The position numbers and the translations under genes were made by a program. A stretch of DNA of 38,000 bases from Pseudomonadota bacterium (GTDB lineage Bacteria; Pseudomonadota; Gammaproteobacteria; Burkholderiales; Burkholderiaceae_C): the NCBI GenBank assembly GCA_018242005.1, contig JAFECU010000285.1:1-38000 (forward strand). The letters run 5' to 3'. Shown here one piece after another: positions 14,278 through 34,174 of this stretch; the stretch's first letter is position 1, and each line of letters begins with the position of its first letter. A model generated the notes under the pieces. The model was not told the DNA's origin, made no database searches, and saw only the letters and a program-made list of their open reading frames with translations.

Positions 14278-14293
14278 TGGCATGGATATTGCC
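14278..14293 (+). promoter_or_regulatory. Sigma-54 promoter of the small cytochrome c gene
   Basis: TGGCATGGATATTGCC matches TGGCAYG-N4-TTGCW at every defined position but the last. GG at 14279-14280 and GC at 14291-14292 have the strict 10-base spacing. The predicted transcript start is near 14304, about 35 bases before the cytochrome start at 14339. Confidence 0.8.
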
Positions 14294-14338
14294 AACGCAG
14301 GGGACGAGTCTTTGAACCCAACGGAAGGGCCCCCCGCC

Positions 14339-14659
14339 ATGCGCAACGTCTTCATCTTCGCCTCGCTCTGGGCTGCCGCCGCGGCCCAGGCCTCCACCGA
14401 TCTGGCGGCCGCGGCCGAGATCGCCAAGAGCAATGGCTGCTATAGCTGCCACGCCGCCGCCGAGAAAATCGTCGGCCCGGCGTTCAGCTCCGTGGCCGAG
14501 AAATACGCCGGCGATGGCGATGCCGCCGCCACGCTGGCGCAGTCCATACAAATGGGCTCCAAGGGCAAGTGGGGCCGTGCCGCCATGCCCGCGCATTCCA
14601 GTCTCAGCGCGCAGGACCTGAAGCTGCTGGCCGGCTGGGTGCTCAGCACCAAGCCATGA
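14339..14659 (+). CDS. Periplasmic class I cytochrome c in the quinoprotein region
   Basis: A 106-residue monohaem cytochrome. Signal peptide 'MRNVFIFASLWAAAAAQAS' (1-19); haem site CYSCH (34-38); likely axial Met83 in 'AMPAHS'. It shares the 'VGPAF..VAEKYAG' pattern with the cytochrome at 4117 and is probably a paralogue. It would carry electrons from periplasmic dehydrogenases to an oxidase. GGAAGGG lies upstream of ATG 14339, and a strong sigma-54 promoter lies just before it, which ties it to the alcohol-oxidation regulon. Its stop overlaps the start of a 74-residue gene as ATGA. Confidence 0.93.
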   Translation: MRNVFIFASLWAAAAAQASTDLAAAAEIAKSNGCYSCHAAAEKIVGPAFSSVAEKYAGDGDAAATLAQSIQMGSKGKWGRAAMPAHSSLSAQDLKLLAGWVLSTKP

Positions 14660-14880
14660 GTCGCGCAGCCATGGCCGCCGCCCATCCGCGCACGTTGCTC
14701 GGCGCCGCCTGGGCCATGCTGCAGCCGGCGGTCGACGTCCAGAGCCAGCACCTGCAGGCCCATGCCGCCTGCCTCCTGGGAGACTACCAGCGCGCGCGCC
14801 GGCTGTGGGAGTCGCTGGCGCAGGACGGCGATGGCGAGGCCCTGGAGCAGCTGGTTCTGCTGGCGCGGCGGGGCGAATAG
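14656..14880 (+). CDS. Small TPR-like protein translationally coupled to cytochrome c
   Basis: A 74-residue protein I do not recognise. It starts with ATG 14656 overlapping the cytochrome stop (ATGA), so it is almost certainly coupled. There is no signal peptide; the sequence is helical and contains one TPR-like unit, 'AHAACLLGDYQRARRLWESLAQDGD', followed by a short 'EALEQLVLLARRGE'. A single TPR or Sel1-like hairpin suggests protein binding. Codon use matches the neighbours. It converges with the flavoprotein gene, 3 bases away. Confidence 0.68.
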   Translation: MSRAAMAAAHPRTLLGAAWAMLQPAVDVQSQHLQAHAACLLGDYQRARRLWESLAQDGDGEALEQLVLLARRGE

Positions 14881-14883
14881 GAA

Positions 14884-16167
14884 TCAGCGTCCCCAGATGT
14901 CCGCGCTGATGGCCGCATACCAGTCCGCGCCCTGGTGCGCCTCGGCGGCGCGGTGCGCGGGCGGGGCGTCCAGCGGGCTCACGCCCACGCTGTGCGGCAG
15001 ATCGACGATGCGCCCCTCCTGCGCACGGTACACGCCCACGACCGAGATGCCGTAGCCCGGCGCCAGCAGGCTGTAGCAGGTGTTGGCAAACCAGGCCGTG
15101 GGGGCGCTGTGGCCGCTCAGTTCGGCCGCCAGCGCCGCGGCCACCACCTTGCCCTGGTTGTTGGCGGCAAAGCCCGACTTCGGAATCGGCCCGGCCAGGG
15201 CCGCGTCGCCCAGCACATGGATGCCGGGCACGCGCTGCGACGCCATGTTCTCGCCGCGCACGGGTGCCCAGCCGCTGGCGTCCACCACGCCCGCGCGCTC
15301 GGCAATCAGCCCGGCCTTTTGCGGCGGGATGACGTTGAGCACATCGGCCCGGTGGCGCGCGCCAAAGGCGGTCTCCACCTCCAGGGCCTGGGCGTCCACG
15401 CGCACCACCTGGCCGTCCTGCGCCAGGCTCACCCATTCGACCATGTCGCCGTACAAGGCCTTCCAGCCCTGCAGGAACAGCTCCTTCTTCGAAAAGTTGT
15501 TCTTCGCATCCAGCAGCACCACCTTGCTGCGCGGTTTGTGTGTCTTCAGGTAATGCGCGACCAGGCTGGCGCGCTCGTAGGGTCCGGGCGGGCAGCGGAA
15601 GGGGTTGTCGGGGATGACCATCACGAAGCGCCCGCCGTCGGGCATGGCCTCGAGCTGGCGGCGCAGCAACTGCGTCTGCGTGCCGGCCTTCCAGGCGTGG
15701 GGCGCGAGTTCGGCCGCCGCCCGGTCGTAGCCTTCGAGCGCGCCCCAGCGCATGTCCACGCCGGGCGAGAGCACGAGCCGGTCCCACGGCAGGACCTGGC
15801 CGGTGTCCAGCCGCAGCCGGCGCCGCTCGCCATCCACATCCTCGGCGCGTGCATGCACGACCTGCACGCCGGCGGCGCGCAGGCCATCGTAGCCGTGGCC
15901 GATGCTGTCCCAGCTGCGCAGGCCCGCGAGGTAGTGGTTGGAAAACGGGCAGGTGACGAAGCGCCCGGCCGGCTCGACCAGCGTGACCTGCACCTGTGGC
16001 GCCCAGTGGCGCAGATAGCGCGCCACGGTGGCGCCGCCAAAGCCGCCACCCACGACCACCACGCGCGCGCTGGCGCCCTTGGCGCGCACCAAGGCGGGGG
16101 TGAGTGCCGGCGCGGCCAGGCCGGCGGCGCCGAGCAGGAGGCGGCGGCGGGGCACAGTGGCGCTCAT
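14884..16167 (-). CDS. Flavocytochrome c-type FAD subunit (FccB / sulfide dehydrogenase-like)
   Basis: A 427-residue FAD oxidoreductase of the FCSD/SQR group. A twin-Arg signal ('PRRRLLLGAAGLAAPAL') directs export as a folded flavoprotein. The FAD-binding 'VVVGGGFGG' is at 37-45, and the conserved redox-active cysteines seem present as Cys73 ('TCPFSNHY') and Cys364 ('NTCYSLL'). 'IHVLGDAA' is the second FAD motif. Family members oxidise sulfide to sulfur and pass electrons to a cytochrome c subunit, here encoded just upstream with an ATGA overlap (16164-16167). In this alcohol-oxidation context the substrate could differ. ATG 16167 is chosen for the Tat signal; an upstream ATG at 16197 would add 10 residues. 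Confidence 0.9.
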   Translation of the reverse strand: MSATVPRRRLLLGAAGLAAPALTPALVRAKGASARVVVVGGGFGGATVARYLRHWAPQVQVTLVEPAGRFVTCPFSNHYLAGLRSWDSIGHGYDGLRAAGVQVVHARAEDVDGERRRLRLDTGQVLPWDRLVLSPGVDMRWGALEGYDRAAAELAPHAWKAGTQTQLLRRQLEAMPDGGRFVMVIPDNPFRCPPGPYERASLVAHYLKTHKPRSKVVLLDAKNNFSKKELFLQGWKALYGDMVEWVSLAQDGQVVRVDAQALEVETAFGARHRADVLNVIPPQKAGLIAERAGVVDASGWAPVRGENMASQRVPGIHVLGDAALAGPIPKSGFAANNQGKVVAAALAAELSGHSAPTAWFANTCYSLLAPGYGISVVGVYRAQEGRIVDLPHSVGVSPLDAPPAHRAAEAHQGADWYAAISADIWGR

Positions 16168-16730: not shown

Positions 16731-17033
16731 CTAGTCGAACCAGCCACGGCGCCAGCTCTCGGCGAGCAGCTCCTGCACCTGGGGGGCTATGCCCCGGGTG
16801 TCGAACAGCGTCTCCAGCTCATTGACGATGTTGGCCACGGTGCGGCGTCCGTCGCAGCGGCGCAGGATTTCGGCGGCGCTGTCGTTGAGCTGCACCATGC
16901 TGTCCGGGGCGATCAGGACCCAGCGCGCCTGTGCGGCCTCGTAATGCAGCTGCAGGTGGCGTGACAAGTGGGGCAGTGCTGGCGGGCTGGGATGGGGGAG
17001 CCCCGGTGCGTTGGTAGCGGCGTCAAAGTGCAT
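16731..17033 (-). CDS. pqqD: PqqD, peptide chaperone of PQQ biosynthesis, standing alone
   Basis: A 100-residue PqqD. In PQQ synthesis PqqD binds the precursor peptide PqqA and presents it to the radical-SAM enzyme PqqE. The family pattern is clear: 'LSRHLQLHYEAAQARWVLIAPDSM' then 'VQLNDSAAEILRRCDGRRTV' and 'IVNELETLF'. Length is normal (about 90-100). ATG 17033 is chosen; upstream extensions are not family-like. Neither pqqA, pqqB, pqqC nor pqqE lies in this window, so the gene is an orphan here. It may serve a pathway encoded elsewhere, be a relic, or act with another RiPP-type peptide. Confidence 0.88.
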   Translation of the reverse strand: MHFDAATNAPGLPHPSPPALPHLSRHLQLHYEAAQARWVLIAPDSMVQLNDSAAEILRRCDGRRTVANIVNELETLFDTRGIAPQVQELLAESWRRGWFD

Positions 17034-17322
17034 GGCAATTGTTCTGGATGGCGTTCGGCAGGGGCCACGGTGGCGCACTGCGCAAAACCATTCCCGCGCA
17101 GTCGCAGGAAACCACAGCAAAATAAGTGCCACACCCTTGTCCATGCCACTTAGCGACTCAAGGTGGCAGGCGCCGGCGACATCGCCTCATGACAGGGCGG
17201 ACAACGGCTACCCAGTGCCCCGCAATGCACGATGCAATTGCTCCAAAGCGGAGCAGCGGCTGTTACAGCGCTCAAGCCGCTGCCGAGACACGCGACAGCG
17301 CTGTGTTTGTGCCAACGAGTGG

Positions 17323-17338
17323 TGGCCTGCTTTTTGCT
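17323..17338 (+). promoter_or_regulatory. Sigma-54 promoter of pedF
   Basis: TGGCCTGCTTTTTGCT differs from TGGCAYG-N4-TTGCW only at the A. GG at 17324-17325 and GC at 17336-17337 are 10 bases apart. The predicted start is near 17349, 28 bases before pedF. The rest of the 343-base gap 17034-17376 has no gene; it holds a 10-bp palindrome ACAGCGCTGT (17295-17304) and GCTG-TTA-CAGC (17259-17269), possible activator sites. Confidence 0.8.
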
Positions 17339-17376
17339 TTTGCTGGGCATTGCCATTTATCAAAGGAGACATCCCA

Positions 17377-17868
17377 ATGCAATCCGCTTTTCAGACCTGG
17401 GCCCGCACGGGCGCACGCACGGCCCTGGCCCTGGCCCTGGCGGCCGGCGCCTGTGCTTCCTGGGCGCATGGCGACGTGACGCCCCAGCCCGTGGACACGC
17501 ACACCCTGCCGCAGGTGGGGCAAAAATGGCTGGAGGACAACCCCTACAGCCAGGGGCCGGCGCAGGGCGAGGCCGTGCGCATAGGCGCCTCGGGCTACAA
17601 CCAGAACTGCGCGCGCTGCCACGGGCTCGAAGCCATCTCCGGTGGCATTGCCCCCGACCTGCGCCACCTTGATGACGAGTGCACCGGCCTGGCGGATGCG
17701 GCGAAGAAGGCCGCCTGCTTCAAGGAGGTCAACGACTACTTCATCGGCACCGTTCGCCGCGGCCGCACGCGCGATGGCCGGGTGTACATGCCGCCCTTCG
17801 AGGGTATGCTGTCCCAGGAAGCCCTGTGGGCCATCAAAACCTATCTTGAAACGCGTCGTGAACCATGA
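17377..17868 (+). CDS. pedF: Cytochrome c-550 PedF
   Basis: A 163-residue periplasmic cytochrome c550, the usual electron acceptor of PQQ-dependent alcohol dehydrogenases (ExaB/PedF type). The signal peptide (1-30) ends 'ACASWA' and contains an Ala-Leu repeat coded by CTGGCC triplication. Family landmarks are 'HGDVTPQPVDT' at the mature N-terminus, 'KWLEDNPYSQG', haem site CARCH (78-82), 'GGIAPDLRHLD' and the axial Met region 'GRVYMPPFEGML'. AAAGGAGA 7 bases before ATG 17377 is a strong ribosome site. A sigma-54 promoter lies 39-54 bases upstream, and the stop overlaps the next start as ATGA. Confidence 0.94.
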   Translation: MQSAFQTWARTGARTALALALAAGACASWAHGDVTPQPVDTHTLPQVGQKWLEDNPYSQGPAQGEAVRIGASGYNQNCARCHGLEAISGGIAPDLRHLDDECTGLADAAKKAACFKEVNDYFIGTVRRGRTRDGRVYMPPFEGMLSQEALWAIKTYLETRREP

Positions 17869-18758
17869 TCGAGGCCATGCAAACTCCCCATTCGCCGGGC
17901 CGGCGCCAGCTGATGCTGGGACTGCTGCCCCTGCTCGCCGGCGTGGGTGCGGCCCAGGCCCAGGATGAACGCAGCGCCCTGGCGCGCATTCGCGCCAGCG
18001 GTGCGCTCAAGGTCGCCCTGTACAACGCCTTTCCGCCGTTCTCGTCGCGCTCCGCCCAGGGGGCGCAGGGCATGCAGGGCCTGGATGTATCTCTGGCCCA
18101 GGCCCTGGCGCGCGCCATGGGGTTGCAGCTGGCTCTGCTGCCCTTCGATGCCGACGAGAACATGAACGACGATCTGCGCAACATGGTCTGGAAGGGGCAC
18201 TACCTGGGCTACGGGCCCGCGGACGTGATGCTGCATGTGCCCGTGGACAAGTACTTCATGCAACAAAACAGGCAGGCCCTGATCTTTGCGCCCTACATGC
18301 GCGAGCAGGTGGTGCTGGTGCGCGACCGGCAGCGCTTGCCCCAGGTGACGGGCGTTGCCGACCTCAAGGACATGCCGCTGGCGGCTGAACGCGGCACCAG
18401 CGCGGCCAGCGCCTTGATCGGGCATGACAATCGTCTATTGAGTGCGCAGGTGCACCTGTACGACGACGGTGTGAAGGCCGTGCAGGCGGTTCTGCAAGGC
18501 CAGGCGGCGGCGGCCTACGTCACACGCGCACAGGCCGAGTCCGCGATCTTTCAGTCCCAGGCGCGGCCCGAGCAGTGGGAGATCAGCGAGTTTCCGCTGA
18601 CGGGCGTGCCTGCCCAGGGCTGGCTGGTGGGTATGGCCATCAAGGCCGGGAACGAAGAACTGGGCCAGGCATTGCAGCAGGCCCTGCAATCGCTGCGCGG
18701 CAGTGGCGAGCTGCTGGCGATTTTCAAACAGCATGGCCTGACCCTGACCGCCCCCTGA
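17865..18758 (+). CDS. XoxJ/MxaJ-like periplasmic binding protein of quinoprotein systems
   Basis: A 297-residue family 3-type solute-binding fold. It matches the quinoprotein-dehydrogenase-associated subgroup by 'ALKVALYNAFPPFS', and especially by 'FDADENMNDDLRNMVWKGHY' followed by 'GPADVMLHVPVDK' and 'ALIFAPYMREQVVLVRD'. XoxJ-type proteins are thought to help activate or mature the PQQ dehydrogenase rather than to import a solute. The signal peptide includes 'RRQLMLGLLPLLAGVGAAQAQ'. ATG 17865 overlaps the pedF stop (ATGA), so the two are coupled and share the sigma-54 promoter. A strong terminator follows. Confidence 0.88.
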   Translation: MIEAMQTPHSPGRRQLMLGLLPLLAGVGAAQAQDERSALARIRASGALKVALYNAFPPFSSRSAQGAQGMQGLDVSLAQALARAMGLQLALLPFDADENMNDDLRNMVWKGHYLGYGPADVMLHVPVDKYFMQQNRQALIFAPYMREQVVLVRDRQRLPQVTGVADLKDMPLAAERGTSAASALIGHDNRLLSAQVHLYDDGVKAVQAVLQGQAAAAYVTRAQAESAIFQSQARPEQWEISEFPLTGVPAQGWLVGMAIKAGNEELGQALQQALQSLRGSGELLAIFKQHGLTLTAP

Positions 18759-18847: not shown

Positions 18848-21136
18848 TCACCTCCACTCATAGCGCATGCCCACGACAACGCTGCGTCCCATGCCCGGCG
18901 CCACGAAGCGCGCCGATCCCATGTCTTCGCCGGGCTTGACCACCACGCCGCCAGGGAAGGCGTCCTCGTTGCCGGTGGCATAGGTCACGTAGCGCTTGTC
19001 CAGCAGGTTGGCGATGCGCAGGTAGGCCTTCCAGCCCGCATTGACCTGCCAGGTGACGCGGGCGTTGAGAAGGCCGTAGCCGGCCACGTCGGCGAGCTTG
19101 GGGCGCGTGCCACTCTCGTTGCCGGCCGCCACCATGGAGCCCACGGCCAGCCAGTCGCCACCCACGACCACCGCAGGCGTGGCGCGCCAGTCGGCCGAGA
19201 GCTTGAACACATGGCGTGGCAGGGCGGCCATGCGGGTGCCCGGTAGGAAGGTGTTGGGTTTCTTGGCCGTGCTCAAGGGGCCGAAGAGTACGCCGCTGCT
19301 TTGGTAGGTGGCATCCAGGTAGGCGTAGCTGGCGCGCATGTCCCAAGGGCCGCGCTGCACGCGGCCGCTCAACTCCAGGCCCTGGCGGCGGGTCTTGCCA
19401 ATGTTGGTGAAGTAACCCGCCTGCGCGATGCCCGAGCGCATGAAGGCGATGTCGTCGTTGTTCACCGAGCGGAACAGGGCACCCGTCACCTGTACGCCTT
19501 CGGCCGGGCGCAGCCTGGCGCCGAACTCCAGCGTGCGCGTGACCACCTGCTTGAGGTAGGGGTCGGCCTGCAGGCCGGTGGGCAGGGTGCAGGGCTTGGC
19601 CGGGTCGGCGCAGCCCAGCTCCAGCGCCGTCGGCATGCGCGTGCCCTGCGACAGGCTGGCAAAACCGAGGGCTGCCGGCGTGAAGGCATGCGTGATGCCG
19701 ATGGCGGGGTTGAGCTTGCTGTATCGGAAGCTCTCGCGGTCATAGGGCGAAGGGTGGCCCAGGTCATTGCGCACGCGGCTGCTGTTCCAGCGCGCCGACA
19801 GGCTCAGGCGCGTGTGCTCCGTGAGGGCGATGGTGTCGGCGGCGAACAAGCCCACGCGCGTGCTGCGCCCGCGCAGCGACACCTCGTGCTCCAGGTCTTC
19901 TCCCGCGATGGGCCGGGCGACGCGGTTGGCGTCAAAAACGGCTTCCTGCTGGTACTGGTCATACTCGGCCGTGCTGCGTGCGAGCTCGCCGCCCACGGCC
20001 AGTTGGTGCGCGCCGGTCTGGTGCGTCCATTGCAGCGTCGTGCCGACCTCTGAATAGCGCGCCTGGCTGACGTTGAACACGGCGTTGTTGCTGACGTAGC
20101 CCGGGGCGGCTGGGTTGGTGCAATTGGTGGTGCCGGGCTTCTCGCAGTCCTCTATCCAGTCAGCCCATTTTTCACTCACATCACCATTGCTGCCGTTGCG
20201 GCGCGAGGAGCGGTGCCAGGCCACCAGCGACAGCTGGTCGTTCGGGGTGATGGCGTGGGTCAGCTGGAAGTTGAGCAGGCCGCCCTGATTGCGGGTCTGG
20301 TCGTAGAAGGTGTAGCCCGCGTTGCGCTGCATGTTGTACAGGCTCTGGTTGAGCAGTCCGTTGCCGATCAGGTTGCTGCGCCCGTAGGTGTAGCTCAGCG
20401 CCCAGGAGGTATCACCGAGGTGGCGCCCAAGCTTGAGGAACAGATTGCCCAGATGGCCCGGCGAGCGCTCGCGCCAGCCGTTTTCATCGAACCAGGTGCC
20501 CGCCACATAGCCGTGCCAACCCTCGCCCCACTGCGCGCCATGGCCGAACTCGACGCGCTTGCGCGCATGGCTGCCATAGGAGACATCGAGCTCGGTTCCC
20601 GGGTGCGTGAAGCCGGACTTGGTGCCCAGCACCAGCGCGCCACCCAGGGTGTTGAGGCCGTACAGCGGGTTGGAGCCGGGGATGATGGCCACGTCGGCCA
20701 GGGCCATTTCGGGAACCAGATCCCAGTCCATGACATCACCCAGCGGCTGGTTGATGCGCACGCCGTCCATGTACACCGACAGGCCCTGGGGCGAGCCGAG
20801 CAGAGGCGACAGGCGGTGGCCGCGGTAGCTCAGGTCGATCTGGTAGGGGCTGCCCTGGATGCTGGCGGTGCTGACGCCGGGCATGCTGCGGTCGAGAAAA
20901 TCGGTCAGGCTGGTGGCGCCGGCGCGCTCGATCTGGGCGTCGCTGCGCATTTGCGCATTGCCGGGATATTCATCGACCGACACATCCAGTCCGGGCAGCG
21001 GTGCCTGATGCACGACCTCGACCTGCGGCAGGCGGCGGACCTTGTCAATGTCAACGGCCTGCGCCACCGCCGCCAGCGGGAAGGTGGAGGCCATGGCCAG
21101 CCAGAGGCGTCGGTGCCTCGAAGGGGGATTTTTCAT
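18848..21136 (-). CDS. TonB-dependent outer-membrane receptor next to the quinoprotein dehydrogenase
   Basis: A 762-residue receptor: signal peptide 'RLWLAMASTFPLAAVAQA', a TonB-box-like segment around 'LPQVEVVHQ', a plug domain ('TSLTDFLDRSMPGVSTASIQG', 'VYMDGVRINQPLGDV', 'NPLYGLNTLGGALVLGTKSG') and a 22-strand barrel with 'RIANLLDKRYVTY' near the end. It ends 'GMRYEWR' rather than in Phe. The ligand is not readable. Its place 158 bases after the dehydrogenase, on the same strand, suggests uptake of something that enzyme needs, such as a lanthanide chelate (LutH-like role) or PQQ. ATG 21136 is chosen for its fit to the signal peptide; an in-frame extension to 21259 has no signal character. 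Confidence 0.9.
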   Translation of the reverse strand: MKNPPSRHRRLWLAMASTFPLAAVAQAVDIDKVRRLPQVEVVHQAPLPGLDVSVDEYPGNAQMRSDAQIERAGATSLTDFLDRSMPGVSTASIQGSPYQIDLSYRGHRLSPLLGSPQGLSVYMDGVRINQPLGDVMDWDLVPEMALADVAIIPGSNPLYGLNTLGGALVLGTKSGFTHPGTELDVSYGSHARKRVEFGHGAQWGEGWHGYVAGTWFDENGWRERSPGHLGNLFLKLGRHLGDTSWALSYTYGRSNLIGNGLLNQSLYNMQRNAGYTFYDQTRNQGGLLNFQLTHAITPNDQLSLVAWHRSSRRNGSNGDVSEKWADWIEDCEKPGTTNCTNPAAPGYVSNNAVFNVSQARYSEVGTTLQWTHQTGAHQLAVGGELARSTAEYDQYQQEAVFDANRVARPIAGEDLEHEVSLRGRSTRVGLFAADTIALTEHTRLSLSARWNSSRVRNDLGHPSPYDRESFRYSKLNPAIGITHAFTPAALGFASLSQGTRMPTALELGCADPAKPCTLPTGLQADPYLKQVVTRTLEFGARLRPAEGVQVTGALFRSVNNDDIAFMRSGIAQAGYFTNIGKTRRQGLELSGRVQRGPWDMRASYAYLDATYQSSGVLFGPLSTAKKPNTFLPGTRMAALPRHVFKLSADWRATPAVVVGGDWLAVGSMVAAGNESGTRPKLADVAGYGLLNARVTWQVNAGWKAYLRIANLLDKRYVTYATGNEDAFPGGVVVKPGEDMGSARFVAPGMGRSVVVGMRYEWR

Positions 21137-21294: not shown

Positions 21295-23013
21295 TCACTG
21301 CATGACCTTGAAGGTCCAGACGCTGCCGCCCTGCTCCAGGAAGTTGACCTTCTTGGCCACCTCGCCGCCCCACAGAGGCACGGCGCCGCCCCAGCCGGAG
21401 ACCACGCTCAGGTACTGCTCGCCATCCTGCGTCCAGGTGATGGGCGGGGCCACGACGCCCGAGCCGGTCTGGAACTCCCACACCACCTTGCCGCTCTTGG
21501 CGTCGGCGGCCTTGAGGTAGCCCTCGGGTGTACCCCAGAACACCAGGTCGCCTGCCACCAGCACGCCGCCCCACAGCGGCGCCTCGTTCTTCACCTCCCA
21601 GGCCACCTTGCCGGTCTTGGGGTCGATGGCGCGCAGCGAGCCGATGTGATCCTCGAACAACGGCTTGATCGTGAAGCCGGCGCCCAGGTAGGCCGCGCCC
21701 TTCTTGTAGGTAATGGGCTCGTTCCAGATCTCCATGCCCCATTCGTTGGTGGGCACGTAGAACAGACCGGTCTTGGGGCTGTAGGCCATGGGCATCTGGT
21801 TCTTGCCGCCCAGGAAGCCCGGCGCGGCAAACACCGACTTGCCCTTCTTGCCGTCGGCGTCGGCAGCCGTGGGGTCGCCGGGACGGTTCTCGGGCACGAA
21901 GTTCGGGCGGCCCGTCTTCAGGTCGATGCCCGTGGCCCAGGTGATCTTCTGCACGAAGGGAAAGGCGTTGAGCAGCTTGCCATCGGCCGCGTCCATCACG
22001 TAGAAGAAGCCATTGCGGTCGGCCTTGGCGCCCACGCGCTTGCCGTCCATGTCGAAGGTGATGAATTCGTTCACCCCGTCAAAGTCCCAGCCGTCATTGG
22101 GTGTGGTCTGGTAATGCCAGACGATCTTGCCGGTCTTCACGTCCAGCGCCAGGGTCGAGGCTGAGTACAGGTTGTCGCCCTTGCGCACATGGCTGTTCCA
22201 GGGGCCGGGGTTGCTGGTGCCGATATAGGCCAGGCCGGTCTTGGGGTCGTAGCTGCCGCCCAGCCAGGTGGAGGCGCCGCCGGTCTTCCAGGTCTCGCCC
22301 GGCCAGGTGGCGCCCGGCGTGCCGGTGATGCCGTTTTCCTTGCCGTCCTTGTAGCCCATGTGGCCCTCGACGGTGGGACGCGTCCACAGCAGCTTGCCGG
22401 TCTTGGCGTCGCGCGCATCGACGCGGCCGACCACGCCGAACTCGCCGCCGGAGTTGCCGGTGATGACCATGCCGTCGACCACCAGCGGGGCTGCGGTGTA
22501 GCTGTAGCCCGCCTGGTAGTCGTCGATCTTCTCGCGCCACACGACCTTGCCCGTGTCCTGGTTCAGCGCCACCAGCTGCGCATCAAGCGTGCCGAAGATC
22601 ACCAGGTTGTCGTACAGCGCGGCGCCGCGGTTGACCACGTCGCAGCAGGGCATGATGCCCTCGGGCAGGCGGTGCTCGTATTTCCAGAGCTTCTTGCCGG
22701 TCTTGGAGTCGAGCGCAAAGATGCGCGAGTACGAGGCTGTGACGAACATCTTGCCGTTGTGCACCAGCGGCTGGCTTTCCTGGCCGCGCTGCTTTTCGCC
22801 GCCGAATGACATGGCCCAGACCGGGGTCAGGCGTTTGATGTTGCCTTCGTTGATGCCGGTCAGCGATGAAAAACGCTGGCCCTGCGTGCCAATACCCCAG
22901 GTCAGCACGTCATCGGGCGTGTTCGCGTCGTCTTGGATCATTTTGTCGGTCACTACCGCGCCGGCCTGGCTGGCGGCAAGTGTCACCAACAAACTCATTA
23001 GCGTGCGTTTCAT
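21295..23013 (-). CDS. PQQ-dependent alcohol dehydrogenase with lanthanide signature (PedH/ExaF-like)
   Basis: A 572-residue periplasmic quinoprotein of the methanol/ethanol family (eight-bladed propeller with repeated 'D.KTGK..W' W-motifs). The signal peptide is residues 1-19. The vicinal disulfide is Cys123-Cys124 ('MPCCDVV'). Predicted metal ligands are Glu191 ('GGEFG'), Asn268 ('TSNPGPW') and catalytic Asp310 in '[11 protein letters not shown]'. Asp312, two residues further on, is the extra acidic residue found in XoxF, ExaF and PedH enzymes that use lanthanides, where calcium enzymes have Ser, Thr or Ala. It oxidises primary alcohols to aldehydes; an ethanol/2-phenylethanol-type range is inferred from PedF. 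A sigma-54 promoter lies about 100 bases upstream, and the TonB receptor is downstream. Confidence 0.93.
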
Positions 23014-23191: not shown

Positions 23192-23242
23192 TGCTCCAAA
23201 AGGCAACACATCCTTCCCGGTCCGATGTGCCGCCATTGATCT

Positions 23243-26328: not shown

Positions 26329-27348
26329 TCATGGCTCGACCAGCACGCCCGACGGCGTGCGCCCGGTGGGCACGGTGCGCAGCGGTTTGGCGGTTGCGGT
26401 GTCGATCAGCGTCAGCTCGTCCGACAGGCCATTGGCGACATACAGCGTCTTGCCGTCGGGGTGCATGGCCAGGCCCCAGGCGCGCCTGCCCACGGGCACC
26501 TGGTGCGTGACGGTCTTGTCGGCCGCGTTCACGCGGGCCACGCGGTTGGCGCGGCCCAGGCCCACCCAGACGCTGGTGCCGTCGGGGCTGATGGCCATGC
26601 CCACGGGGGTGATGTCGGTCGCGGGCACGCCCGGCAGGTTGAAGGCGATCTTGTCTTTGATCTGCTGGGTGTTGGTGTCGATCACGGCGACCGAGGCCTC
26701 CAGCTCGTTGCTCACCCACAGCTCGTTGGCCGCGGCCAGCAGCACCAGCCGACGCGGGCGCTTGCCGGTCTTGATGGTCTTCACGACCTTGTGCTGCGCC
26801 AGGTCGATGAGGTACACCGCGTCTGCCGCCTCGGAGGTGACATAGGCGAACCGGCCATCGGCCGTGACCAGTACGCCCTCGGGCTCCTTGCCCGTTGGCA
26901 CCTGGAACAGCGGTTTCTTGCCGGCGATGTCGTAGGCGGCAAGCACGTTGTCGTCCTCGATCGAGACGTAGGCGGTCTTGCCGTCGGGGCTGAGGTCGAA
27001 GATTTCCGGGCTCTCGCCCACGGGAACCGTGTCTACGAGCTTGCCTGCTGCCACATCCACGATGCCCAGCTGGTCGCTGTCGCCGCAGCTGACGACGATC
27101 TGCGCATGCCCGGGCAGGAACATCATGTGGCGCGGCCGCTGGCAGACCGCTATCTCGCCCAGGCGGTCGCCCCGGGTGTTGAACACCTGCAACCGGTGGT
27201 CTTTTTCGTTGGAGACGTAGACCCGGTCGGCCACACCCGCGGCGTGCACGGCCGTGGCCGACGCCAGGCCGACGAGTGCGGTCAAGACCCAGTCCAGGGG
27301 GCGCCGACCGCGCGGGGGGGACTGTGGCCTTGGGGCTGTGTCTGCCAT
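26329..27348 (-). CDS. PQQ-dependent catabolism-associated beta-propeller protein
   Basis: A 339-residue exported seven-bladed YVTN-type propeller. Signal region 1-37 ('VLTALVGLASATAVHAAG'), then repeated blades such as 'RVYVSNEKDHRLQVFNTRGD', 'ELWVSNELEASVAVID' and 'TLYVANGLSDELTLIDTAT'. Length and blade sequence match the family found beside PQQ dehydrogenases; its biochemical role is unknown. GGAG lies 9 bases before ATG 27348. It is part of the unit running from the sigma-54 regulator to the metallohydrolase, with gaps of about 65 bases to each neighbour. Confidence 0.92.
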   Translation of the reverse strand: MADTAPRPQSPPRGRRPLDWVLTALVGLASATAVHAAGVADRVYVSNEKDHRLQVFNTRGDRLGEIAVCQRPRHMMFLPGHAQIVVSCGDSDQLGIVDVAAGKLVDTVPVGESPEIFDLSPDGKTAYVSIEDDNVLAAYDIAGKKPLFQVPTGKEPEGVLVTADGRFAYVTSEAADAVYLIDLAQHKVVKTIKTGKRPRRLVLLAAANELWVSNELEASVAVIDTNTQQIKDKIAFNLPGVPATDITPVGMAISPDGTSVWVGLGRANRVARVNAADKTVTHQVPVGRRAWGLAMHPDGKTLYVANGLSDELTLIDTATAKPLRTVPTGRTPSGVLVEP

Positions 27349-27414
27349 GAGAGTGTCTCCGGTATTGTTGTCGGGTTTGCTACATGCACCGCTTGGGGTG
27401 TCACGGCCAGTGTG

Positions 27415-27987
27415 TCATTGTGGAGCAGCCGTTTGCTTGGCGCGGCGCCGCCCTGCGTCGCTCCAGCGCATGCGTTGCAGCAAGGCATCTTTCAAAACGA
27501 GCTGGTGGTACAGGAAGGCCAGCACATGCAGGACGATGAGCAAGATCAGGGCCAGTGCCGATATATGGTGCACGCCGCTGAGCAGATCCTTGGCGCCTTC
27601 CCAGCGCGCTGCGAGCTTGGGTAGCTGCATGCCGAAGAAACGTATGGGATAGCCCGAAAACACCGAGCTCAGAAAGCCCGACAGCGGCATCACCAACATC
27701 AGGGCATACAGCAGGCCATGGGCACCGCGGGCGGCCAGCTGCAGGCGGCGCGCCTGTGGCCACGCGGGCACGCGCGGGCGCAGAAGTGCCCAGGCCAGGC
27801 GCAGCACGATGAGCAGGCCCAGCACCATGCCCAATGACTTGTGCACGTTGAACCAGGAGGCGCGCAGGCCCGTGCTGTCCTTGGGCAGGCCAATCATCCA
27901 CAGGCCCAGGGCGATCTGCCCCAGGATCAGGGCCGCCATGAGCCAGTGCAGCGTGACGGAAAATCGGTCGTATCGGGCCGGTTGCAC
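27415..27987 (-). CDS. Cytochrome b561
   Basis: A 190-residue four-helix membrane protein of the prokaryotic b561 family, which passes electrons between quinone and periplasmic carriers. Haem-ligand histidines are in 'SVTLHWLMAALILGQ', 'NVHKSLGMVLGLL', 'RGAHGLLYALMLVMPLSG' and 'SGVHHISALALILLIVLHV'. GTG 27987 is chosen because AGGAGG lies 6 bases before it; a GTG at 28005 places that ribosome site inside the gene. It begins 21 bases after the regulator stop, so it is in the same unit. It may return electrons from the quinoprotein chain to the membrane. Confidence 0.93.
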   Translation of the reverse strand: MQPARYDRFSVTLHWLMAALILGQIALGLWMIGLPKDSTGLRASWFNVHKSLGMVLGLLIVLRLAWALLRPRVPAWPQARRLQLAARGAHGLLYALMLVMPLSGFLSSVFSGYPIRFFGMQLPKLAARWEGAKDLLSGVHHISALALILLIVLHVLAFLYHQLVLKDALLQRMRWSDAGRRRAKQTAAPQ

Positions 27988-28007
27988 GGAAAACCTCCTG
28001 TCCACTA

Positions 28008-30032
28008 TCAGTCGAGCAGATCGGGCGGCAGCAGGTTCTTCTTGCGGTAGATGGTGTTGCGGGAGACGCCGAGCGCCTTGGCCGCTGCCGACACATTGCC
28101 CTTGTGCAGACGCAACATCTGTGCCATGGCATTGATGGTGACGTCCTGCAGGCTTTGGCTGTCCTCGCCCTCATCGGCGGTGGGCGGCGGTGGCGCGCCG
28201 ACGCTGGGCATGAGCGGTGCTTCTGCCGCAGGCAGGGGTATGGCCACCGGGCGCATGGGAGCGCGCAGTTCGTCGAGGAAGTCGTCGGGCAGATGCTCCA
28301 GGCGGATGGTGCAGTCGTCGTCCACCATGACGGACGCCGTGCGCAGCAGGTTGTGCAGCTGGCGCACATTGCCGGGCCAGTGGTAGGCGCGCAGCAATTC
28401 GAGCACCTGCGGCGCCAGTGTGATGCGGGTGCAGCTCTCGCAAAGCGAATGCAGCACCTTTTGCACCACGGCATCAAAGTCGCTCCTCTCGCGCAGCGCG
28501 GGCAGGCGCACGACCAGGCCGTTCAGGCGGTAGTACAGGTCTTCGCGGAAATCACCGCGCGCGATCAGTTCCTTGAGGTTCTTGTGCGTGGCGCTGATGA
28601 GGGTGACATCGACCTCCACTTCCTTTCCGGCCCCCAGGGGGCTGACCTTGCGCTCCTGCAGCACGCGCAGCAATCGCGCCTGCAGGTGCTTGGGCATGTC
28701 GCCGATTTCGTCAAGGAACAGCGTGCCGCCGTGCGCCTGCTGGATCTTGCCCGGCGCGCCTTTCTTGCGCGCGCCGGTGAAGGCCCCTTCCTCGTAGCCG
28801 AAGAGCTCGGCCTCGATCAGCGTGTCGGGGATGGAGGCGCAGTTGACGGCCACGAAGGGCTGGCGTGCGCGCGCCGAATCGTGGTGTATGGCCTGGGCCA
28901 GCAGATCCTTGCCGGTGCCGGTCTCGCCCAGGATCATGACGGGAATGTCGCGATCGACCACCTTGCGCAACTTGGTGATGACGCCCGACAGCTGGGCATC
29001 GCCCGTGTCCAGGTATTCCAGGGACGACAGCTGCTGCGGTTTGCGCGGCGCATTGCCGCTGTTGCTGCTGCTGCGCGGGGGCGGCGCGCCGCCTTCGGCC
29101 AGTGGCGAGACGATGGGCGCGGCCCAGGGGCCTGCGGGCTTGATCTCGGTGCGGCACCAAACCGTGACCCCGTTGTGCAGGCACAGCTGGCGCGGCGTCG
29201 CGTTGGGGCTGGCGAACAGCTCGAACAAGGCCGAGATCGGCAGGTTGAACAGCGAGGGGAAGGTGTGCGCCTGCAGCGCGCCGAACGACATGCCGAGCTG
29301 AAACTGCGCGCTGCGGTTGGCCGAGACGAACCGCCCCTCGGCGGTGAAGGCCGCAATGCCCTCGACCAGCGTGCCCAGGAACTCGGGGCGTGAGTGGAAA
29401 TGCACGCGCACGGCCTTGGGAAAGCTGCCCGCGAACATATGGTTCTCGATCATCTGAGCCGACATGCGCACCAGCGCCAGCGTGTGCTGGTGGTAGCTGC
29501 GGTGGTCGCCCGAGACGTCCAGTGCGCCCACGATCTGCCCGTAGGGGTCGAGAATGGGCGCGCATGAACAGGTCAGCGCGTGGTTGACGTTCATGTAGTG
29601 CTGGTTGCCGTGCACGGTGACGGGCTGCTGCGTCGTGAGGGCCGTGCCCACGGCGTTCGTGCCCTTGGCCTGTTCGCTCCAGTCCATGCCGGGCACCAGG
29701 GCCACGCGGTCGGCCTTCTCCAGGAAGTCGTTGTCGCCCATGGAATGCAGCACCGTGCCCTGGGCCGATGTCAGCAGCACCATGCTATGGGTGTTGGCAA
29801 TCTGGCCGTAAAGGGTCTCCATGACCGGCACGGCGTGCTGGAACAGGAAGCGGTTTTCTTCCAGGGCGTCCTTCAACTGCCCGATCGCCAGGCTGGAGTG
29901 ATCGGGCTGGTCGTCCGTTGATATGCCAAAGGACTTGGAGCGCTGGTGTGCCTGGTCTATCAGCGCGGCCGCATCGTGCTCCGGTGATATGTGCACGGCC
30001 ATGTTGGTTTGCCTGACCAGCGTGGTGTCCAT
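28008..30032 (-). CDS. Sigma-54-dependent transcriptional activator, AcoR family
   Basis: A 674-residue enhancer-binding protein. The N-terminal GAF-type sensor (about 60-205; 'SEQAKGTNAVGTAL' is an AcoR-family hallmark) is followed by a PAS-like segment (215-290), an AAA+ domain with Walker A 'GETGTGKD' (369-376), the sigma-54 contact loop GAFTGA (416-421) and Walker B 'LFLDEIGD', and a Fis-type helix-turn-helix at the end ('GNVSAAAKALGVSRNTIYRKK'). AcoR-type proteins respond to small metabolites such as alcohols, aldehydes or acetoin. Sigma-54 sites in front of five units here, including its own, make it the likely regulon controller. Confidence 0.94.
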   Translation of the reverse strand: MDTTLVRQTNMAVHISPEHDAAALIDQAHQRSKSFGISTDDQPDHSSLAIGQLKDALEENRFLFQHAVPVMETLYGQIANTHSMVLLTSAQGTVLHSMGDNDFLEKADRVALVPGMDWSEQAKGTNAVGTALTTQQPVTVHGNQHYMNVNHALTCSCAPILDPYGQIVGALDVSGDHRSYHQHTLALVRMSAQMIENHMFAGSFPKAVRVHFHSRPEFLGTLVEGIAAFTAEGRFVSANRSAQFQLGMSFGALQAHTFPSLFNLPISALFELFASPNATPRQLCLHNGVTVWCRTEIKPAGPWAAPIVSPLAEGGAPPPRSSSNSGNAPRKPQQLSSLEYLDTGDAQLSGVITKLRKVVDRDIPVMILGETGTGKDLLAQAIHHDSARARQPFVAVNCASIPDTLIEAELFGYEEGAFTGARKKGAPGKIQQAHGGTLFLDEIGDMPKHLQARLLRVLQERKVSPLGAGKEVEVDVTLISATHKNLKELIARGDFREDLYYRLNGLVVRLPALRERSDFDAVVQKVLHSLCESCTRITLAPQVLELLRAYHWPGNVRQLHNLLRTASVMVDDDCTIRLEHLPDDFLDELRAPMRPVAIPLPAAEAPLMPSVGAPPPPTADEGEDSQSLQDVTINAMAQMLRLHKGNVSAAAKALGVSRNTIYRKKNLLPPDLLD

Positions 30033-30191: not shown

Positions 30192-30207
30192 GGCAAAAGG
30201 CGTGCCA
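30192..30207 (-). promoter_or_regulatory. Sigma-54 promoter of the regulator-relay operon
   Basis: On the minus strand this reads TGGCACGCCTTTTGCC, matching TGGCAYG-N4-TTGCW except at the last base, with correct GG-N10-GC spacing. The predicted start is near 30180, about 150 bases before the regulator start. No other gene lies in the 274-base gap 30033-30306. Confidence 0.78.
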
Positions 30208-30306: not shown

Positions 30307-32451
30307 TTAGAACTGATAGCCCAGGTTGACCCCCGCCATCCACTGGCGCCCGGGCGCGGCCTCGTAGTAGCGGCCATTGCCTTCGTTGACGATGACGGAG
30401 CCTACATATTTCTTGTCGGCCAGGTTGTCGATGCGGGCAAAGGCGTTGAGCCTCCAAGGCCCCCATTGCCGGGTGTAGCCGGCGCTCAAGGCCAGCACGT
30501 CGTAGCCGGGGGCGAGGGTGGTGTTGCTGTCGTTCGCGGCAATGGCGCTGACATGGCGCCAATCGGCGCCCACGCGCCAATCGTTGTGGGGCCGCCAGTC
30601 CAGCCCTATGGCCGCCTGGGTGCGCGCCGTACCCGCAAGTCGCTTGCCCGCGGGCACGCAACTGCCCTTGCTGTCGCAAAAACCATCGCGCAGCTTGGCG
30701 TCCAGCACCGAGAGGGCCGCATTGAGCTGCCAGAGTGGAGACAGCCACAGCTGGGTGGCGAACTCCGCACCCTGGCGCCGCGTGCGCCCGGCGTTGCGGT
30801 AGGTGGACCGACCGCCGGTGTTGTCGGCGGTGACGATTTCGTTCCTGGTGTCGGTGTGGAACAGCGCCAACGACCATTGGCCACGCAGCGCATCGCCGGC
30901 AATGCGCTGACGCAGGCCGACTTCCACGCTGCTGGAGCTGGCCGGTTGAAGGCCGAAGTTCAGGCCCGGCAGGCCTCCCGGGCGGTAGGAGATCTCGTTG
31001 AACGTTGGCGTGTCCATGCCGCCGCCAAGCGAGGCGTAGACATGGGTGTTGGCGTTCAGCTCATGCTGCAGCGACAGCATGGGGAGCCAGCGCTGGTAGC
31101 GCGTGCTGCCGCTGTCGTCGCCATTGCCGGGGACGATGTAGCGGTCGCGCGAGATGAAGTGCACGTTGCTCCAGCGCAGTCCAGCGTCGAGCTTCCACCG
31201 CGGCGCAAAGGCCCAGCTGGCCTGCATGTAGGGGTCGGCATTGCTCAGCGTGTTGCGTTCGTTGCGGCGCAGTGCGCCCATTACGCCGAACTGGCTGCCC
31301 AGGAAGTTGTTGTAGCCCTGGCGGTCTTCCTCCACCATGTTGGCGGCCAGGCCCAGTACCAGGCTCAAGGGGCTGTCTGCGAGCCGCGTGTCATGCGCCC
31401 AGCGCAGGTCCACGCCGCCATAGTCGCGCCCCAGGTCGATCACGCCGCCGGCGCTGGTGGCGGGCTTTTGCGCCGCCACCGGCGTGGACTGGTACTGCGT
31501 GATGTGGCGCTGACCGACGTAGACCATGAGGCGCAGCGCGTTGCTTGCGTCCACACGGTTGTCGTAGGCCAGGCCCACCTGGGTCTGGCGCATGTACTTG
31601 CGCATATTGAAGTCCAGCGGCCCCTGCGCCGTGGCGCGCGGGTTGGTCGCCCATTCGGCGGGCGTGACGCCGCCGGGGTCCTTCGCATCCACGTCCACAT
31701 GGTTGGCCACCAGCATCAGGTGGCTGCCGTCGCTCGGGTCGGTGTCCAGGCGGGCGTTGAGCAGATTCTTGTCGGCCGCGCTCTGCGGGCGGAAACCATC
31801 GGTCAGGAAGCGGCTGGCACTGACCACGTAGCCCACGCCGCCCTGTTCGCCCTGGGCCTTGATGCCCAGTCGCTTCTGCCCGTTGCTGCCCATGGCGAAG
31901 CTGCCGTCCACGCGCGGGCGGCCCTCGCCGCGCTCGGTGTAGGCGTTGATGACGCCGCCCGAGGCGTTGCCGTACAGCGTGGAGTAGGGGCCGCGCAGCA
32001 CCTCGATGCGCTCTACCGACTGCAGGTCGATGTTGTTGGTCTGGCCCTGGCCGTCAGGCATGGTGGCGGGAATGCCATCGACGAATATCTGCACGCCGCG
32101 CACGCCGAAGGTGGAGCGCGCACCATGGCCGCGGATCGACAGCTGCAGATCCTGCGCATAGTTCTGGCGGTTCTGCAGCAGCAGGCCGGGCGTGCCGGAC
32201 AGCGATTCCGACAGGTTGACCTGCCACTGCCGGTCGCGCACCCGGTCGCCATCGACGATGGTGACCGCGGCCGGTGTGTAGTCCAGGGCAGACTGCACCA
32301 GGGTGCTGCGCACGGTGACATCGGGCAGGCTTGGAGGCGCCGGGGCGGCGCCGGTCTGGGCGCTGGCGCCGTGGGCCAGCGCCATCAGGCTGGCCAGGGT
32401 GGACAGGCGCAGGGGCCAGCCGGCGGATAGGCAGAGGCGGACGACATGCAT
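30307..32451 (-). CDS. pqqU: PqqU/YncD-like TonB-dependent receptor for PQQ
   Basis: A 714-residue outer-membrane receptor strongly similar by eye to E. coli YncD (PqqU), the TonB-dependent importer of PQQ. Shared stretches include 'TPAAVTIVDGDRVR', 'NLSESLSGTPGLLLQNRQNY', 'GIPATMPDGQGQTNNIDL', 'LRGPYSTLYGNASGGV', 'IVPGNGDDSG' and the end 'YVGSVIVNEGNGRYYE'. The signal peptide ends 'AHGASAQ', and the final residue is Phe as usual for barrel insertion. AAGGA is upstream of ATG 32451. No sigma-54 site was found before it, so it may be constitutive or controlled otherwise. The ligand assignment rests on this similarity. Confidence 0.9.
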   Translation of the reverse strand: MHVVRLCLSAGWPLRLSTLASLMALAHGASAQTGAAPAPPSLPDVTVRSTLVQSALDYTPAAVTIVDGDRVRDRQWQVNLSESLSGTPGLLLQNRQNYAQDLQLSIRGHGARSTFGVRGVQIFVDGIPATMPDGQGQTNNIDLQSVERIEVLRGPYSTLYGNASGGVINAYTERGEGRPRVDGSFAMGSNGQKRLGIKAQGEQGGVGYVVSASRFLTDGFRPQSAADKNLLNARLDTDPSDGSHLMLVANHVDVDAKDPGGVTPAEWATNPRATAQGPLDFNMRKYMRQTQVGLAYDNRVDASNALRLMVYVGQRHITQYQSTPVAAQKPATSAGGVIDLGRDYGGVDLRWAHDTRLADSPLSLVLGLAANMVEEDRQGYNNFLGSQFGVMGALRRNERNTLSNADPYMQASWAFAPRWKLDAGLRWSNVHFISRDRYIVPGNGDDSGSTRYQRWLPMLSLQHELNANTHVYASLGGGMDTPTFNEISYRPGGLPGLNFGLQPASSSSVEVGLRQRIAGDALRGQWSLALFHTDTRNEIVTADNTGGRSTYRNAGRTRRQGAEFATQLWLSPLWQLNAALSVLDAKLRDGFCDSKGSCVPAGKRLAGTARTQAAIGLDWRPHNDWRVGADWRHVSAIAANDSNTTLAPGYDVLALSAGYTRQWGPWRLNAFARIDNLADKKYVGSVIVNEGNGRYYEAAPGRQWMAGVNLGYQF

Positions 32452-32520
32452 GGAAGATCCTTCGCTTCACTGCGGTGAACGAGAAGCAGGGCGGCAATCG
32501 TCCCTTCACGCCCTGCCATG

Positions 32521-32561
32521 AAAAATCACCCGGCCCGCGGCGGCGCGCTGTGGGCCGGGTG
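32521..32561 (-). terminator. Terminator of the aldehyde dehydrogenase gene
   Basis: Arms CACCCGGCCC (32527-32536) and GGGCCGGGTG (32552-32561) pair perfectly; on the minus strand the stem is followed by ATTTTT. It lies 14 bases past the aldehyde dehydrogenase stop. Confidence 0.88.
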
Positions 32562-32574
32562 GCTGGCGGGACGC

Positions 32575-34101
32575 TTAGAAGAAGCCCAGCGCCTTGGGGT
32601 TGTAGCTCACCAGCAGGTTCTTGGTGTGCTGGTAGTTGGACAGGGCCAGCTTGTGGGTCTCGCGGCCGATGCCCGACTTCTTGTAGCCGCCAAAGGCCGC
32701 GTGCGCCGGGTACAGGTGATAGCAGTTGGTCCACACGCGGCCTGCCTGGATGGCGCGGCCCATGTGGTAGGCGACGCTGCCGTTGCGGCTCCAGACACCC
32801 GCGCCCAGGCCGTACTCGGTGTCGTTGGCGATCTGGATCGCGTCATCGACATCCTTGAAGGTGGTCACCGAGGCCACGGGGCCGAAGATTTCCTCCTGGA
32901 ACACGCGCATGTCGTTCTTGCCAAAGAGCAGCGTGGGCTTGATGAAGAAGCCGTCGTTGATCTCGCCGCCGGCGCGCAGGCGCTCGCCGCCGGTGAGGCA
33001 CTTGGCACCCTCGCCACGGCCGATGTCGATGTAGCCAAGAATGCGGTCGAGCTGCTGCTGCGACACCTGCGCGCCCACCATGGTGCTCTTGTCCAGCGGG
33101 TGGCCCTGCTTCATGGACTGCACACGCGCCACGGCGCGCTCCATGAAGCGGTCGTAGATGGATTCCTGCACCAGGATGCGCGACGGGCAGGTGCAGACCT
33201 CGCCCTGGTTGAGCGCGAACATGGCAAAACCCTCGAGGGCCTTGTCCAGGAACTCGTCGTCGGCGTCCAGCACGTCGGCAAAGAAGATGTTGGGGCTCTT
33301 GCCGCCCAGCTCCACGGTGGACGGAATCAGGTTGTCGGCCGCGGCGTGCAGGATGCGCTGGCCCACCGGGGTGGAGCCGGTGAAGGCGATTTTTGCGATG
33401 CGCTTGCTTGTCGCCAGGGCCTCGCCGGCCTCCTTGCCGAAGCCGTTGACGATGTTGACCACGCCCGGCGGCAGCAGGTCGGCGATCAGCTCCATCAGCA
33501 CCATGATGGAGGCAGGCGTCTGCTCGGCCGGTTTCATGACGACGGAGCAGCCGGCCGCCAGCGCGGGCGCGAGCTTCCAGCAGGCCATGAGGATGGGGAA
33601 GTTCCAGGGGATGATCTGGCCGACCACGCCCATGGGCTCATGGAAGTGGTAGGCCACGGTGTTGGCGTCGATCTCGGAGATCGCGCCTTCCTGGGCGCGT
33701 ATGCAGCCGGCAAAGTAGCGGAAATGGTCGATGCCCAGCGGCAGGTCGGCGGCCATGGTCTCGCGCAGGGGCTTGCCGTTGTCTATGGTCTCGGCAATGG
33801 CCAGCAGTTCCAGGTTCTGCTCCATGCGGTCGGCGATCTTGAGCAGCATGTTCGAGCGCTCGGTCACCGAGGTCTTGGCCCACTTGGCCTGGGCAGCGTG
33901 GGCCGCGTCCAGCGCCAGGTTGATGTCGGTGGCATCGGACTGGGCCACTTGGCAGAAGGGCTTGCCGGTAATCGGGGAGACATTGTTGAAGTAGCGCCCG
34001 GCCGCAGGCGCCACCCACTTGCCACCGATGAAGTTGTCGTACTTCTGGCGATAGGGGTACGAGATGTCGAGATTGAAGCGCTTGAGTTCGAACATGTCCA
34101 T
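32575..34101 (-). CDS. NAD-dependent aldehyde dehydrogenase (AcoD/ExaC-like)
   Basis: A 508-residue cytosolic ALDH that would oxidise the aldehyde made by the quinoprotein to the acid. Catalytic Glu264 is in 'VELGGKSPN' and Cys303 in '[11 protein letters not shown]'; the NAD-binding 'FTGSTPVGQ' and 'PWNFP' are clear. The N-terminus ('[21 protein letters not shown]') and 'CTCPSR' are typical of the AcoD/ExaC group of acetaldehyde-type enzymes. GGAG lies 7 bases before ATG 34101. A sigma-54-like site 58-73 bases upstream links it to the alcohol regulon. It is monocistronic with a strong terminator. Confidence 0.95.
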
Positions 34102-34158
34102 GGTGGTCTCCTGAGTAAGGTTGTGGCCGGAGTGATTTGGCCGGCTGCCACAGGAGCA

Positions 34159-34174
34159 ATCAAGCTTCGTGCCA
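34159..34174 (-). promoter_or_regulatory. Probable sigma-54 promoter of the aldehyde dehydrogenase
   Basis: On the minus strand this reads TGGCACGAAGCTTGAT. The -24 half is perfect and the spacing correct, but the -12 half is TTGAT rather than TTGCW, so one key base differs. The predicted start is near 34147, leaving a 46-base leader. An inverted pair GTGACAC (34258-34264) and GTGTCAC (34302-34308) lies further upstream, reaching into the 3' end of the AraC-type gene, and could serve the activator. Confidence 0.65.

Follow-up and report, generated by a model that had tools for sequence, protein, structure and literature searches.

A candidate AcoR-type sigma-54 regulon for lanthanide-type PQQ alcohol oxidation in a Burkholderiaceae_C genome

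Genes of the locus

We analysed a stretch of 38,000 nucleotides (the window) of contig JAFECU010000285.1 from a Burkholderiaceae_C bacterium (assembly GCA_018242005.1). It encodes an alcohol dehydrogenase that uses pyrroloquinoline quinone (PQQ), together with cytochromes, an aldehyde dehydrogenase and an enhancer-binding protein. Judged from its sequence, the locus very probably forms a single alcohol-oxidation regulon, built from an AcoR-type activator, a palindrome and sigma-54 promoters. Gene identities come from profile searches of 20 open reading frames of the window with NCBIfam/TIGR and Pfam models; the names PedF and ExaC follow the NCBIfam models.

The PQQ alcohol dehydrogenase (21298..23013, minus strand; TIGR03075, 767 bits) is closest among solved entries to 6zcv/6zcw (809 bits), which we take to be PedH, followed by 1flg (665 bits), presumably ExaA. 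Its active-site motif is WDFDG, as in 6zcv/6zcw; 4mae, which we take to be a XoxF, and 6dam have WDYDG, and 1flg has WDFSG. By the second aspartate two residues past the catalytic one, the enzyme is of the predicted lanthanide type. This aspartate also occurs in 91 of 91 dehydrogenase motifs collected, a count that we discarded as evidence because the pattern is unable to match calcium-type genes.

The enhancer-binding protein (28011..30032, minus strand; start at 30032 or 30002) was correctly recognised in an earlier, sequence-only reading of this DNA: GAFTGA is present in the translation, and the protein combines a GAF domain, a sigma-54 AAA+ domain (PF00158, 226 bits) and a C-terminal HTH_8 domain (PF02954, 32.5 bits). 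None of the 25 NCBIfam models listed for it scored above its own cut-off; we call it AcoR-type by its domain architecture and by the pairing with ExaC described for Ralstonia. The acetaldehyde dehydrogenase ExaC lies at 32578..34101 (minus; NF050026, 905 bits, cut-off 900). A small cytochrome c of 106 residues (14339..14659; PF00034) and the cytochrome c-550 PedF (17377..17868; TIGR04494, 202 bits, cut-off 122) are on the plus strand, and divergent from pedF is an orphan PqqD of 100 residues (16734..17033, minus; TIGR03859, 80 bits, cut-off 46).

The remaining genes profiled complete the setting. Behind pedF is a solute-binding protein (17865..18758, plus) that is weakly XoxJ/MoxJ-like; the name xoxJ given to it before has little backing in TIGR03871 (26 bits, far under the cut-off of 212). 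All others are on the minus strand. A TonB-dependent receptor (18851..21136), identified by profile search, is downstream of the dehydrogenase, and on the other side of that enzyme follow quinoprotein relay zinc metallohydrolase 1 (23246..24226; TIGR04558, 406 bits, cut-off 300), a SoxYZ-like carrier of quinoprotein dehydrogenases (24226..25014; TIGR04557, 214 bits, cut-off 140), the ABC substrate-binding protein of PQQ alcohol dehydrogenase systems, pabcb (25068..26261; TIGR03863, 393 bits, slightly below the cut-off of 414), a PQQ-catabolism beta-propeller protein (26332..27348; TIGR03866, 270 bits, slightly below 287) and cytochrome b561 (27418..28005; PF01292). A PqqU-like TonB receptor, putatively for PQQ uptake, lies between the regulator and exaC (30310..32451; NF041535, 819 bits, under the cut-off of 1200). 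In many relatives, ABC ATPase and permease genes go along with those for the propeller and the binding protein; they had no match in the window (25014-27348 region). No sensor kinase or LuxR regulator of the PedS2/PedR2 type was found among the 20 frames profiled; the remaining frames and the genome were not searched.

Sigma-54 sites and a common palindrome

Five sigma-54 sites had been proposed from sequence, and their coordinates and strands are right: before the cytochrome c gene (14278..14293, plus), pedF (17323..17338, plus), the dehydrogenase (23115..23130, minus), the regulator (30192..30207, minus; score 17.3) and exaC (34159..34174, minus). Each has exactly one mismatch to TGGCAYG-N4-TTGCW. 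The exact GG-N10-GC spacing claimed for all of them is present in the first four; the exaC site reads GG-N10-GA. Gaps between site and start codon, said to be 28-150 bases, came to 45, 38, 101, 159 and 57 bases, near that range; they follow from the start codons, which were picked by judgement from the translations. A sixth site at 17116..17131 on the minus strand, TGGCACTTATTTTGCT, had been overlooked. It has GG-N10-GC and the top score in the window (20.0), and it lies 82 bases upstream of pqqD, given a pqqD start at 17033. These data support pqqD as an additional predicted member of the regulon. The genome encodes rpoN.

At up to one mismatch, 8 of the 85 sites in the 3.96-Mb genome fall inside the 38 kb, where 0.8 would be expected (Poisson p 1.2e-6), a clustering of such sites. 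The eight are the five earlier sites, 17116(-), and two intragenic ones, 16245(+) and 35068(-). At up to two mismatches, the window is ordinary, with 23 matches against 18.8 expected and 19 of the shuffles reaching 23. Among random 300-bp windows, 4.5% reach a sigma-54 score of 12 and 3.3% reach 13.

A separate site-like sequence, TGGCACAGATGTTGCG (28111-28126, minus), lies within the regulator gene, 105 bases ahead of b561, with no palindrome seen nearby. It is identical in 7 of 8 related loci scanned, the exception being the cut-short locus L217, and this conservation may reflect coding constraint.

From relatives we learned a palindrome, TGTTCC-N5-GGAACA (cAcTGTTCCAAATTGGAACAgTg), with five strong copies in the window. 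It was discovered through enriched 8-mers and a TGTTC-N7-GAACA pair in pedF and propeller upstream regions; a generic dyad scan was abandoned, its output being mainly GC-rich noise. The main matrix was built from dehydrogenase, pedF and propeller upstream regions of relatives, excluding the closest kin (L010-L012), and 108 of 120 upstream regions contribute to it. The copies lie before the cytochrome c gene (14195..14217; score 17.0, 60 bp from the sigma-54 site), between the divergent pedF and pqqD promoters, common to both (17236..17258; 18.6, 64 bp from the pedF site and 104 bp from that of pqqD), before the dehydrogenase (23189..23211; 13.6, 58 bp), before the propeller gene (27408..27430; 19.3) and before exaC (34223..34245; 18.5, 48 bp). 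Seven window matches score at least 7, and those beyond the best five reach 8.5 and 7.4.

The two elements go together. With thresholds of at least 9 for the palindrome and at least 12.5 for sigma-54, four palindromes lie 48-104 bp upstream of five of the 10 sigma-54 sites in the window. Across 388 kb of the same genome, containing all 77 one-mismatch sites outside the window, 5 palindromes and 88 sigma-54 sites formed 0 pairs (Fisher p 3.7e-6); when the matrix was permuted symmetrically 1000 times, no trial reached five pairs, and the maximum was 4. When the matrix was learned from dehydrogenase promoters alone, it marked the same five window places and no other at a score of at least 8, and four of these places precede other genes.

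The search for further regulon members reached across the genome. TGYTYCANNNNKRARCA with at most one mismatch occurs at 38 distinct places, four of them in the window (44 rows versus 21 for the backward-read pattern). At the 34 outside places (33 stretches), 0 of 8 palindromes scoring at least 9 had a sigma-54 site of at least 10 within 250 bp; three weak pairs were seen, with palindromes of 5.4-7.5.

Conservation and co-occurrence in relatives

We examined the best 80 of 406 dehydrogenase relatives among named genomes. For each window gene, up to 300 bases ahead of its best match were taken; pieces shorter than 200 bases were dropped, as were matches starting past residue 25 (the regulator was exempt). 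A site had to score at least 13, with the antisense strand as control. Of 77 loci, 76 have a sigma-54 site ahead of the dehydrogenase (antisense 1/77), and all 24 pedF upstream regions have one (antisense 5). Counts for the other genes are 20/27 for the propeller (antisense 11), 5/7 for exaC (2), 4/6 for the PqqU-like gene (2), 5/29 for the regulator (12), 9/40 for pabcb (3), 2/7 for b561 (1) and 2/44 for the SoxYZ-like gene (0). We tentatively attribute the high antisense counts to divergent neighbours' own sites. No site was found upstream of the metallohydrolase (0/21), solute-binding protein (0/17), TonB receptor (0/9), flavoprotein (0/3) or second cytochrome (0/2).

Palindrome matrices learned from one promoter class were also applied to others. 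The matrix from pedF and propeller promoters recovered 74 of 76 dehydrogenase promoters. The one from dehydrogenase promoters recovered 22 of 24 for pedF, 6 of 7 for exaC, 24 of 29 for the regulator and 3 of 6 for the PqqU-like gene. The same training gave 3/40 for pabcb, 2/31 for pqqD and 1/53 for cytochrome c, and 0 of 91 for the metallohydrolase, SoxYZ-like protein, TonB receptor and solute-binding protein together. Among 2000 random windows drawn from these loci, which contain real elements of their own, 133 and 105 gave a match.

Across 118 loci (training loci and two from this genome included), 218 of 318 palindromes are paired with a sigma-54 site of at least 12, before genes for the dehydrogenase, PedF, propeller, regulator, ExaC and others. 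In 12 rows from 11 loci, the pair stands before a TonB receptor gene whose product has 33-43% identity to the PqqU-like protein. We translated 23 of the 35 unassigned pairs, which by eye gave PqqB-like, ABC-transporter, tripartite-transporter and TolQ-like genes and porins. Comamonas badia (L015) has a pair upstream of its dehydrogenase, and the L010 counterpart of the propeller palindrome has a sigma-54 site scoring 13.2 downstream. According to its annotation, a Variovorax plasmid groups acs, exaC, pedF and the regulator with pqqBCDE; pairs were seen there ahead of pedF and of pqqB. As a side observation, a TolQ/ExbB-like gene, so named by eye, has both elements in L036, L049, L050, L053, L062 and L087; it may supply the energy for TonB-dependent uptake of PQQ or metal.

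The regulator itself travels with the dehydrogenase. In a sample of 120 family genomes, 27 of the 28 that have the dehydrogenase, or a relative 54-58% identical to it, also have the regulator, against 31 of the 92 that have neither (p 1e-9, uncorrected for relatedness). The regulator threshold was E 1e-100 or better, paralogues included; the dehydrogenase cut-off of E 1e-150 admits the 54-58% identical relatives, and G004 and G018 have only such. pedF is present in 21 of 30 regulator loci examined.

The same survey gives the first rival its footing: the regulator could be an acetoin or aldehyde activator (AcoR/ExaC) of exaC alone, with the dehydrogenase and cytochrome genes under another activator or a two-component system. 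Regulator homologues do occur in those 31 family genomes without the dehydrogenase, and in Cupriavidus metallidurans a 56% identical regulator adjoins exaC, which is preceded by a palindrome (score 25) and a sigma-54 site, with no alcohol dehydrogenase match in the 9 kb flanks examined. (There and in Caballeronia the plasmid records give no annotation for the stretch, and genes were named by tblastn searches with proteins of the window and of Variovorax.) AcoR of R. solanacearum is likewise predicted to pair with ExaC (PMC4676750). Against this, most relatives examined have the same palindrome ahead of pedF and of the dehydrogenase, it also stands at the pedF, cytochrome c and dehydrogenase promoters of the window, and the regulator co-occurs with the dehydrogenase. 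We consider control of exaC alone improbable.

Equally improbable, in our view, is that the regulator is the lineage's metal switch, answering lanthanide availability, as its position near a lanthanide-type dehydrogenase might suggest. Among eight genomes of the genus, G000 (this genome), G123 and G125 have the lanthanide-type enzyme, G004, G121 and G122 have a calcium-type one (WDFSG), and two have no match; the regulator was found in seven. The three genomes with WDFSG enzymes carry regulators 86-87% identical to ours, and in two of them, G121 and G122, a palindrome/sigma-54 pair lies upstream of the calcium-type gene. Since the same regulator accompanies either enzyme, sensing of substrate or product is suggested; GAF domains are typically small-molecule sensors. 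The regulator thus probably responds to an alcohol or a derived aldehyde and not to metal. As a separate observation, G120 (L211, L216) retains the regulator with no dehydrogenase match, no PqqE or PqqC above cut-off and a partial PqqU-like receptor, apparently an eroded locus.

The enzyme types also differ in PQQ supply. PqqE and PqqC are above cut-off in exactly the three calcium-type genomes of the genus and in none of the lanthanide-type ones (completeness 91% for G000, 95% for G123 and 99% for G125). In this genome, to which the PqqB search was confined, pqqB was not found, and its PqqC-like protein is far under the cut-off (51 of 240 bits). Adjoining pqqD (14887-16520, minus) are a small cytochrome c gene and a gene for a flavocytochrome c sulfide dehydrogenase-like flavoprotein, which also sit beside pqq genes in L013, L015 and L194; the flavoprotein-cytochrome-pqqD order is kept in L012, and G004 has pqqE-pqqD-pqqC at that place. 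A decaying remnant is disfavoured by pqqD dN/dS ratios (nonsynonymous to synonymous change) of 0.35 (L010), 0.28 (L012), 0.48 (L194) and 0.44 (L015); the values of 0.28-0.35 against close kin thus indicate constraint, weaker than in five neighbour genes compared, of which the next-weakest is b561 (0.31 and 0.20). The PqqU-like receptor is present in 7 of 8 genus genomes, one copy truncated, and is therefore no marker of PQQ scavengers; in four Burkholderiales genomes PqqU is described alongside PQQ-synthesis genes (PMC12124388). A speculative and rather unlikely extension is that one alcohol-responsive sigma-54 regulon was rebuilt within the genus, pairing calcium-type enzymes with PQQ synthesis and lanthanide-type enzymes with PQQ scavenging, and that PqqD, retained behind the top-scoring sigma-54 promoter, took a new role for imported PQQ.

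The proposed regulon and known systems

From the promoters, palindromes, spacing, conservation and co-occurrence described above, we infer the following mechanism. The AcoR-type protein (28011-30032) would bind the palindrome, whose centre lies about 85-145 bp ahead of where transcription is expected to start. It would turn on sigma-54 RNA polymerase at the promoters for cytochrome c, PedF, PqqD, the dehydrogenase and ExaC; the PqqU-like gene behind exaC is perhaps co-activated. Its GAF domain would be the probable sensor of the alcohol or its aldehyde. Within the single regulon first proposed, palindromes, conserved sites and co-occurrence back the promoters of pedF, exaC, the dehydrogenase and the cytochrome c gene; the regulator promoter is the less well supported part.

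Several observations weigh against this regulon or narrow it. Upstream of the regulator's own site at 30192, no palindrome scoring 0 or more was found in 388 nt, so that control of the regulator, b561 and relay genes is putative. Between the propeller gene and its palindrome no sigma-54 site is recognisable, and the matrix from dehydrogenase promoters recovered only 11 of the 24 propeller regions. Among the five palindromes, that of the dehydrogenase scores lowest, the exaC site, TGGCACGAAGCTTGAT, has an imperfect -12 element without the canonical GC, and the matrix from pedF and propeller promoters added weaker matches to the five places (11.2 at 288, 9.0 at 11102 and 8.3 at 30844) that lack such a setting. 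Among relatives, sites are rare before cytochrome c (2/53, in L012 and L077; antisense 0), whose best matches are possibly homologues and not orthologues, and before pqqD (2/31, in the close kin L010 and L012; antisense 2). Near its own dehydrogenase, G004 has sigma-54 sites and no palindrome that reaches 9, and the exaC palindrome of the Variovorax plasmid has no site scoring 12. The assignment of the activator to the palindrome rests on neighbourhood and co-occurrence.

The regulator site varies within the genus: it is good in G004, G120 and G123, its first base differs in L010 and G122, the GG is lost in L012/G125, and it was not seen in the one inspected of G121's two copies. In G122 and G120, a palindrome (15.7 and 16.8) lies immediately upstream of the site, making autoregulation plausible in those two.

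That all these sites are chance matches in GC-rich DNA, as the ordinary two-mismatch count and the 4.5% of random windows reaching 12 might suggest, is very hard to reconcile with the one-mismatch clustering, the 76 of 77 dehydrogenase loci and the pairing with palindromes.

The regulon reading names a specific activator, binding element and group of promoters as candidates for the control of lanthanide-type PQQ alcohol oxidation among Comamonadaceae. Sensing of the substrate is set apart from sensing of the metal, and the occurrence of calcium- and lanthanide-type enzymes alongside one regulator within a genus makes a natural experiment; the regulon can be tested in relatives already in culture, for example Comamonas badia.

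Among the top matches of searches in open-access literature, no title or abstract opening described a lanthanide or PQQ dehydrogenase regulon under an enhancer-binding protein; the main text of PMC12316311 has one alcohol dehydrogenase passage and does not mention PQQ, quinoprotein or lanthanide. The locus resembles the Pseudomonas ped/exa system (PedE/PedH, PedS2/PedR2, AgmR) in PedF, a PedH-kind dehydrogenase and ExaC. Control there is described as lying with two-component and LuxR-type regulators (PMC6115532, PMC12997753), and here an AcoR-type sigma-54 activator and a common palindrome take that place. The different wiring suggested earlier thus stands relative to Pseudomonas ped; it has precedents elsewhere.

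One is exaA of Azospirillum brasilense, a PQQ alcohol dehydrogenase gene reported to be under sigma-54 control with a LuxR-type regulator 45% identical to PedR2 (PMC6115532); unlike here, the partner described is no enhancer-binding protein. Thauera butanivorans has BmoR, a sigma-54 activator that responds to alcohol and has an inverted repeat upstream (PMC8899819); by its description, it drives a butane monooxygenase promoter from an element placed 193 bp ahead of the sigma-54 boxes. Another precedent is the AcoR-ExaC pair of Ralstonia and Cupriavidus, an AcoR-type activator with exaC, before which C. metallidurans has the same palindrome. In R. solanacearum, growth on ethanol needs rpoN1, and AcoR-ExaC control is predicted (PMC4676750). 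A PQQ dehydrogenase set is not described for that regulon in the passages cited, whereas the regulon proposed here would include the dehydrogenase, cytochromes and pqqD.

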